From Haloterrigena turkmenica DSM 5511 (GTDB lineage Archaea; Halobacteriota; Halobacteria; Halobacteriales; Natrialbaceae), in assembly GCF_000025325.1 (NCBI RefSeq), contig NC_013743.1, positions 930,001-994,000 of the forward strand: 64,000 nucleotides of DNA, in the 5' to 3' direction. Position 1 is the first letter of the stretch. Each line of letters starts with the position of its first letter. Both the position numbers and the translations under genes were made by a program. The notes beneath the pieces were generated by a model. The model did no database searches and had not been told where the DNA came from. It was given only the letters and a program-made list of their open reading frames with translations. Shown here one piece after another: positions 18,775-23,914 of this stretch.

Positions 18775-19365
18775 ATGTTAGACGATGCCGAACCCGTTAT
18801 CCGGACCGACCCCGTGATGGCGGAACTCATCGAGCGACACGATCCCTACGTCGAACCCGACTGGGACGAGTTCGAACGGCTCTGTATCTCCATTATCAAT
18901 CAGCAGCTGTCGACCGCGAGCGCGACCGCCGTCCGCGAGCGCGTCTTCGAACTGCTCCGCGACGAGGTGACTCCCGAGACCGTCCTCGAGGCGGAGGACG
19001 AGGCCCTACGAGCGGCCGGGCTCTCCGAGAGCAAGATCGAGTACATGCGCAACGCCGCGCGGGCATTTCAGGAGAACGACTATACTCGAGCGGGGCTCGC
19101 CGACTACTCGAACGACGAGGTCGTCGATCTGCTGACCGAGATCAAAGGCGTCGGGGAGTGGACCGCCCGCATGTACCTCCTGTTCGTGCTGGAACGCGAG
19201 GACGTGTTGCCGCTGGGCGACCTCGCGATCCGTCGCGCGATCGAGGACCTCTACGGGGACGGCGCGGAACTGTCCCGCGCCGAGATGCGCGAGATCGCCG
19301 AGCGGTGGCGACCGTACCGGAGCGTCGCGACGCGGTATCTGTGGGCCGAGTACGAGTCGGAGTGA
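18775..19365 (+). CDS. AlkA-type DNA-3-methyladenine glycosylase
   Basis: A 196-residue HhH-GPD base-excision enzyme that removes alkylated bases. The helix-hairpin-helix is LLTEIKGVGEWTARMYLLF, and the catalytic Asp lies in LPLGDLAIRRA about 18 residues later. ISIINQQLSTASATAVRER is the conserved N-terminal helix. The protein lacks the N-terminal domain of E. coli AlkA, as short archaeal homologues do. It follows the flavoprotein by 75 bases. Confidence 0.9.
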   Translation: MLDDAEPVIRTDPVMAELIERHDPYVEPDWDEFERLCISIINQQLSTASATAVRERVFELLRDEVTPETVLEAEDEALRAAGLSESKIEYMRNAARAFQENDYTRAGLADYSNDEVVDLLTEIKGVGEWTARMYLLFVLEREDVLPLGDLAIRRAIEDLYGDGAELSRAEMREIAERWRPYRSVATRYLWAEYESE

Positions 19366-19659: not shown

Positions 19660-21051
19660 ATGGCAAACGACAGGCCCGTAGACGAGCCATCGACAGGCGA
19701 ACCGTCACAGCGACGAATGACCACCGATCCCGAGCGCATCAGGGAGTGGGCCGAAGCCCGCGATGCGGTCCCCGTCACGGTTCGTGACAGCGAGGGCCAC
19801 GGTCACTCCTTCGCTCACCGGGACGAACTCGGCTCGGACCACGAGGAGTACACGTGGGACGAGTTCATCGATCGGTTCGAGGACGAGGATCTGGTGTTCA
19901 TCTACCACGGAGACGACTCCGCGGAGGAGGAGGGGCTGGGCTACTTCGAACTGGTCGAGCGCGAGCATGCGTTCGAGCGCGCCGACCTCGGCCGCAGCGA
20001 ACTCGAGGACCAGCTCCGAGAGGGTGAGACGGTCACGACCGAAATCGTCGAGACGCAGGTCGTCGAGACGGAGGTCGTCGAGCGGGACACGATCGAGAGC
20101 GAGGTCGTCGACACCGATATCGTCGAACGGAACGTCGTCGACTCGGAGCTGCTGAACCGGGAGATCGTCGACACCGAGTTCGTGACCGCAGACGAGATCG
20201 AAGTCATCACCGAAGAGTCCCGCCTCGACACGATCGAGGAGGTCGAACGCTACACCATCGAGAGCCGGGTCGTCGACGTCGACGTCGAACAGCACGGCGA
20301 ACTCGAGAGCGACAAGATCGAGACCGACATCGAACTCGAGAGCGTCCAGCGGTCGATCCTCGAGAGCGATGTCGTGCGCGCGGACGTGACGGCCGACGAC
20401 GTCATCGAGCAGGGTGTCATTCGGAGCAATCGCGACGAGGGCGCCGTCGTCCAGAGCGAACTGCTCGAGCGGCGCACGGTCGAAGAGCAGATCGACGAGC
20501 GGACGCGCATGCTCTTCACCCTCGAGGAGACCGAACTGCTCGATTCGGAGGTCATCGGCAGCGACGTGATCGAGGGAGAGATCATCGACGTCGAGGAGTA
20601 CGGCGAGATGGAGACGAGCGCCGAGGCCGGCGAAACCGAGGCGGGCACCGGTATGGGTGCCGGTGCCGGCGGCGGAGCCGGAACCGGCGCGGAAGGGGCC
20701 GGCGACCCCACTCCGGACGTCGAAGTCGAATCCGGAACCGGCGGTTCGACCGCCGACGCGGGCGAGATGGGGAGGATCGAACTCTCCCCCGACGATCAGG
20801 GCAAAGACGTCGTCGACGAGACGGGCGAGCAGATCGGTATCGTCGCGGAAGTCGAGGGCCAGACCGCCTACATCGACCCCGAGCCGGGGCTGACGGATCG
20901 ACTCAAGGCGCGGATGAATTGGGGCGGCCACGACGACGAGGACTACCCCGTCGAGGCGTCGGAGATCAACGAGATCACCGACCGAGAAGTGATCATCCAG
21001 CACAGAGAAACCGAGGATCACACCGGCGACGACGACACCACCGGCATCTAG
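19660..21051 (+). CDS. Acidic five-residue-repeat protein with C-terminal PRC-barrel
   Basis: A 463-residue cytosolic-looking protein with no signal or membrane segment. Residues 20-120 are a mixed domain (WAEARDAVPVTVRDSEGHGH). Residues about 125-320 repeat a five-residue pattern, [ST/R]-E/D-x-[VI]-[VE], as in TEIVE-TQVVE-TEVVE-RDTIE-SEVVD-TDIVE. A Gly/Ala hinge (GMGAGAGGGAGTGAEGAG) follows, then a PRC-barrel at about 370-450 (LSPDDQGKDVVDETGEQIG). PRC-barrels occur in RNA processing and photosynthetic proteins. The regular spacing of aliphatic residues suggests a beta-solenoid or fibre, by inference. Confidence 0.75.
   Translation: MANDRPVDEPSTGEPSQRRMTTDPERIREWAEARDAVPVTVRDSEGHGHSFAHRDELGSDHEEYTWDEFIDRFEDEDLVFIYHGDDSAEEEGLGYFELVEREHAFERADLGRSELEDQLREGETVTTEIVETQVVETEVVERDTIESEVVDTDIVERNVVDSELLNREIVDTEFVTADEIEVITEESRLDTIEEVERYTIESRVVDVDVEQHGELESDKIETDIELESVQRSILESDVVRADVTADDVIEQGVIRSNRDEGAVVQSELLERRTVEEQIDERTRMLFTLEETELLDSEVIGSDVIEGEIIDVEEYGEMETSAEAGETEAGTGMGAGAGGGAGTGAEGAGDPTPDVEVESGTGGSTADAGEMGRIELSPDDQGKDVVDETGEQIGIVAEVEGQTAYIDPEPGLTDRLKARMNWGGHDDEDYPVEASEINEITDREVIIQHRETEDHTGDDDTTGI

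Positions 21052-21124: not shown

Positions 21125-23914
<2,790 letters not shown>

Follow-up and report, generated by a model that had tools for sequence, protein, structure and literature searches.

The window, that is, the whole stretch of 64,000 nucleotides from Haloterrigena turkmenica DSM 5511 that was analysed, contains a gene for a protein with a long array of five-residue units. The array protein is real and conserved, and it is undescribed as far as we searched; in the genomes searched, no full array turned up outside Halobacteriales. Full-length orthologues were present in 5/5 other genomes of the genus searched (identity 85-91%), and the closest named relative found was Haloterrigena salina, with a protein 88% identical. 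The genome of the host is 5.44 Mb. Our tentative reading is that the array may form a beta-structured acidic rod (solenoid), which would serve as a rigid spacer between two docking domains. The parts of the gene are as follows.

19660..21051, plus strand: whole gene, an ORF of 463 aa plus stop with an ATG start
19711..19962, plus strand: N-terminal domain, residues 18-101 (BLASTP to a Xanthomonas plasmid protein; AlphaFold2 pLDDT)
19972..20325, plus strand: first block of the array (block A), from residue 105 to about 222, in one phase (period-five peak in 125/125 rows)
20023..20187, plus strand: 11 units at residues 122-176, where block A is most regular (autocorrelation, unit alignment)
20350..20601, plus strand: second block of the array (block B), residues 231-314, one residue out of phase with block A (period-five peak in 124/125 rows)
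20608..20775, plus strand: linker, residues 317-372, rich in Gly, Ala, Glu, and Thr (composition; variable among relatives)
20776..21003, plus strand: PRC-barrel-like domain, residues 373-448 (sub-threshold PF05239; profile-profile alignment)

The autocorrelation of hydrophobic residues at lag 5 was 0.72 over residues 104-175 and 0.44 over residues 100-315, values that none of 2000 shuffles reached. Over residues 104-175 it was also 0.68, 0.58, and 0.61 at lags 10, 15, and 20, respectively, and negative at lags 2, 3, 7, and 8. The best period for residues 122-314 was 4.95, with a spectral power of 31.3 compared with a shuffle maximum of 13.1 over all periods (n=2000). When 125 unique rows of the family were averaged, the rhythm started near residue 105 and ended at residue 314 in two phase blocks; the phase was constant to about residue 222, slipped by one residue near 222-231, and held in the second block from about 231 to 314. 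In 30-residue windows over residues 100-314 of this average, period 5 was the best of the tested periods, except for two windows that preferred the harmonic 2.5. Row by row, the spectral peak lay at period 5 in all rows of block A and in all but one of block B (that row peaked at 3.9), compared with 50/1250 shuffles, although the rows are homologous and thus are not independent proofs of the rhythm. These results agree with the period of five proposed in the earlier note, while the array of about 190 residues described there is slightly longer, with about 210 residues (approximately 105-314). The coiled coil that the same note had named as evidence against its proposal is excluded by near-zero power at its periods of 3.5 and 3.6 (at most 1.8, compared with 3.3-12.2 at period 5 in 30-residue windows). 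A super-period of 15 or 20 residues was considered and rejected: the autocorrelation of acidic and S/T residues in the window protein was highest at lag 15 (residues 100-315), and the BLOSUM lags of the family and unit-order shuffles gave no consistent preference.

Acidic residues followed lag 5 in residues 104-175 (0/2000 shuffles reached the observed value) but less well in residues 176-315 (382/2000), and S/T residues followed it poorly in both segments (246/2000 and 402/2000, respectively), so the rhythm is carried mainly by aliphatic residues. A consensus was derived from 275 in-register units, namely the 11 units of residues 122-176 in 25 of the 35 aligned sequences. Position 1 is T (36%), R (32%), or S (20%); position 2 is E (67%) or D (15%); position 3 is V (30%), I (23%), L (17%), or T (17%); position 4 is V (63%), I (19%), or L (12%); and position 5 is E (47%) or D (28%). 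Position 4 is therefore V, I, or L in 94% of units, and it is the core of the pattern, since the earliest units (residues 105-125) mostly have a single aliphatic residue there. The previously suggested consensus E/D-x-[VI]-[VE]-[ST] describes the same unit in another register and is less exact. The array was rightly called acidic: residues 122-314 (193 residues) comprise 32% D/E, 32% V/I/L, and 8% K/R, with six glycines, no proline, and a net charge of -47. The linker that follows is different, having 3.6% V/I/L and 17 glycines in 56 residues. It varies in sequence and length among relatives and is probably disordered. An antisense open frame of 438 aa (19705-21021, minus strand) spans nearly the whole gene and shows a five-residue rhythm of the L-D-D-L-R type, which high GC content and the 15-base periodicity of the sense strand most likely produce as a side effect.

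The array is also conserved in sequence and, in part, in length. The dN values against five congeners were 0.024-0.041 for residues 122-176 and 0.035-0.093 for residues 177-314, similar to those of the PRC part (0.037-0.058) and below those of the N-terminal domain (0.061-0.108) and the linker (0.096-0.148). Against three more distant relatives, dN in residues 122-176 was 0.061, 0.076, and 0.132, the last of these (L012) with a dN/dS of 0.395. These values are support and not proof, because dN/dS overlaps more between the parts and the segments are short. The span of residues 100-316 has the 217 residues of the window protein in 21/34 aligned relatives and differs in the other 13, from 210 to 292 residues. 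Taken together, the composition, with its many V/I/L residues and no proline, and the low dN argue for an ordered and probably beta structure.

However, structure prediction did not provide a fold. In the AlphaFold2 model of the full protein, the N-terminal domain and part of the PRC region were modelled with fair confidence, while pLDDT was about 31 over most of residues 128-372 and the array had neither strands nor a fold; the array alone gave a mean pLDDT of 40.5 and a pTM of 0.12. The unusual beta-solenoid or filament of the earlier note thus gained no confident model either way, from a poor input of seven sequences, of which six are relatives 67-88% identical to the window protein. Since these relatives are few and so similar, the failure says little about the array. 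A fold search with the full-protein model returned no match at E<=0.001, and no relative of the array was found in Pfam, NCBIfam, or the PDB. Residue coupling (125 rows, effective number 56) gave a weak signal that was short-range only and strongest at i,i+2, with no peak at 15 or 20 residues from which the length of a coil could be read. The i,i+2 coupling fits strands and would by itself be insufficient to establish them.

The array might instead be largely disordered: an extended polyanion that acts as a flexible spacer adapted to salt and keeps its rhythm for multivalent binding of a partner or of cations. The absence of secondary structure over most of the array in AlphaFold2, the large negative charge, and the lack of long-range coupling are consistent with it. 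Disorder had also been named in advance as evidence against the proposed solenoid or filament, and the pLDDT of about 30-40, coming from seven similar sequences, speaks neither clearly for it nor against it. The richness in V/I/L without proline, the aliphatic rhythm in nearly all rows, a dN among congeners as low as that of the PRC part, and the narrow AlphaFold2 input make such a polyanion unlikely in our view.

In the rod reading, this would be an old haloarchaeal three-part protein, in which an acidic rod of about 42 units follows a small N-terminal docking domain and is tied by a flexible linker to a second, PRC-barrel-like docking domain. Each five-residue unit would form a short beta-strand and a corner, and the chain would wind as a beta-solenoid with aliphatic residues inside, above all those at position 4, and acidic residues outside, where they might hold hydrated cations in the salty cytoplasm. 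The rod would then act as a spacer or scaffold that fixes the distance between the end domains. No evident signal or membrane segment was seen in the sequence, and the protein is probably cytoplasmic. The rod reading is supported by the long rhythm with its one slip, kept in almost every row, by the nearly invariant aliphatic at position 4, by the V/I/L-rich, proline-free composition that sets the array apart from the linker, by the low dN, by the exact span in most relatives, and, weakly, by the strand-like coupling. It is weakened by the model without strands, by the missing coupling peak, by the variable span in the remaining relatives, by the dN and dN/dS of L012, and by neighbouring genes that are kept in closer relatives only. 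In addition, each unit has an adjacent aliphatic pair, and both members cannot face inward in a plain strand. If the array folded only upon oligomerization, with two or three chains forming a beta fibre to which each contributes successive strands, this pair could line an inner face as well as a contact between chains. Such a fibre would also fit a strong rhythm that yields no monomer model, but the array has no sequence match to any solved fibre, and we consider this distinctly unlikely.

Compared with pentapeptide repeat proteins (PF00805), the array shares tandem five-residue units, an aliphatic rhythm, and polar outer positions. It also has at least 8 contiguous period-five units, with 11 in residues 122-176 alone, though the unit differs from the consensus of that family. 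V, I, and T dominate the central position (3), where L and F together make up 26% of the 275 units, against the consensus in the accessible part of PMC8145042. Unlike pentapeptide proteins, the array places arginine at the inner position of the small residue, includes a second and more constant aliphatic residue, and is about one third acidic. No Pfam match to PF00805 over the cut-off was obtained for the window protein, 7 members, or 27 array members. As the earlier note held, the consensus is unlike the canonical pentapeptide repeat, and the array is not a member of this family because the defining features that were tested, the Pfam match and the central L/F, fail. A divergent member with the usual four-sided right-handed beta-helix has been weighed nevertheless. 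In one register, residues allowed by the 2019 consensus, as given in the accessible part of PMC8145042, make up 59, 85, 26, 65, and 80% at positions 1-5. This register gave the sole positive profile column score (0.86) of five against a canonical archaeal pentapeptide protein, the others ranging from -1.45 to -8.2, and a tblastn match to the same protein reached E=1.7e-4. However, that match is 20% identical and may reflect periodicity alone, and the second aliphatic is a misfit in the tolerable register: the most constant aliphatic would face outward, and arginine would occupy the inner small-residue position in 32%. Neither a confident AlphaFold2 model nor a preference for lag 20 in units or coupling was found for the four-sided helix, and divergent membership appears very improbable. 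By analogy, the array may still work as a rod in the way that pentapeptide proteins do.

The N-terminal domain has relatives outside the archaea. In a single comparison, it matched a 90-aa Xanthomonas plasmid protein (P0001) by BLASTP with E=1e-12, and this small bacterial protein is homologous to it over nearly its whole length. The AlphaFold2 pLDDT was about 55-82 over most of the domain. The Xanthomonas protein matches 173 plasmid records, mostly from Sinorhizobium (80) and Rhizobium (56). Unlike the haloarchaeal protein, the translated bacterial protein has neither the array nor the PRC part, and the rhizobial gene was likewise short in the two regions opened. Genes in those regions include treZ, UdgX, a cupin protein, and an isoaspartate methyltransferase, and two regions are too few for conclusions. 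The domain occurs on its own, encoded by a small gene, on rhizobial plasmids; it also forms the C-terminal end of a 283-aa open frame of a Halomarina plasmid (L214-L216).

At the other end of the chain, the fusion of the acidic array to a PRC-barrel holds, in that a PRC-barrel-like domain is real but weak: PF05239 scored 12.2 bits on the window protein, below the cut-off of 21.2, and 2/7 members matched it at E<=1 (best 0.17). The "PRC-barrel partners" of the earlier note are better put as one such domain in the same chain. In a profile-profile alignment, the C-terminal domain aligned in register with the accepted PRC domains of haloarchaeal proteins at E=0.0016 with a probability of only 15.8%, compared with 0.45 for a reversed profile. 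It is 45-49% identical to short annotated PRC-barrel proteins, but these either score below the threshold too or have no match. L001-L003 presumably resemble haloarchaeal PRC-barrel proteins of the CdpB1/CdpB2 cell-division type. The window domain differs from these in being sub-threshold in Pfam, in having its own insert motif, and in being fused to the array and the N-terminal domain, and no link to division was found. YsnF/AvaK (DUF2382) stress proteins also combine a charged, V/E/R-rich repeat-like domain with a PRC-barrel. They are similar to the window protein in this architecture and differ from it in DUF2382, which had no match in Pfam scans of the window protein, 7 members, or 27 array members. 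No paper on this protein was found in literature searches, and published work on haloarchaeal PRC-barrel proteins may discuss the family.

The distribution of the array was obtained with a profile of 27 members. It was present in 76/125 genomes of the family of the host (57/101 in an earlier sample). In the order, 87/293 genomes matched, or 86 after G296 was dropped because its match was judged spurious, and in the phylum 24/392 matched, with 20 in the order and 4 outside it. These four genomes belong to one other genus and gave weak matches, which were rejected: the five stretches fetched are near-identical, minisatellite-like five-residue runs. In these stretches (L125-L129; G613, G579, G633, and G640), tandem DNA repeats translate into runs such as SEVIN or VNTEL, which may illustrate how an array of this kind begins. 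The hit in G233 turned out to be a canonical pentapeptide protein. Three weak matches were judged spurious: two, in G296 and in G297 contig 2, are positioned opposite other genes with repetitive sequence, and the third, in G292 contig 3, was seen as a translated frame only. Two further weak matches occur in G043 contig 1. G297 contig 2 also contains another haloarchaeal period-five array (L104), an unrelated open frame that begins with a signal-like sequence and carries numerous N-[VLA]-T-[VI]-E units as well as acidic Asn/Thr-rich stretches; its aliphatic residues alternate rather than adjoin. Some genomes have two copies of the protein. Among plasmids, 17 records matched the whole protein at 1e-5; five haloarchaeal records cover 77-93% of it, including the array, and the sole bacterial one, from Xanthomonas, matches residues 5-101 only. 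No relatives were found in the viral contigs scanned.

The gene is flanked by two others.

18775-19365, plus strand: HhH-GPD (AlkA-type) DNA glycosylase, kept in 18/44 loci
21125-23311, minus strand: catalase-peroxidase (KatG), kept in 15/44 loci

These neighbours occur in closer relatives and other loci have different ones, although absence is not always proven because flank lengths differ between loci. Some PRC-barrel genes of alphaproteobacteria belong to the general stress response, according to the accessible parts of PMC6180224 and PMC6599016. The two neighbours and this analogy are the sole grounds for a stress-related role, which they weakly suggest. It is possible, if somewhat doubtful, that the array represents a new class of five-residue beta-repeat with an adjacent aliphatic pair and an acidic exterior, whose roughly 42 units build a polyanionic rod or fibre adapted to salt. 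In this reading, the repeat would have originated within Halobacteriales, with a 15-bp DNA minisatellite as a possible source, and would then have been fixed to space a stress-associated domain apart from a PRC-barrel. If the array is disordered, it would be odd in itself that an aliphatic rhythm is so strongly conserved where there is no fold. If it is a beta rod, its short, clean consensus would be useful for protein design, it would be a repeat fold that works in molar salt with acidic residues at about one position in three, and the growing set of haloarchaeal PRC-barrel proteins would gain a modular member that is still uncharacterised.
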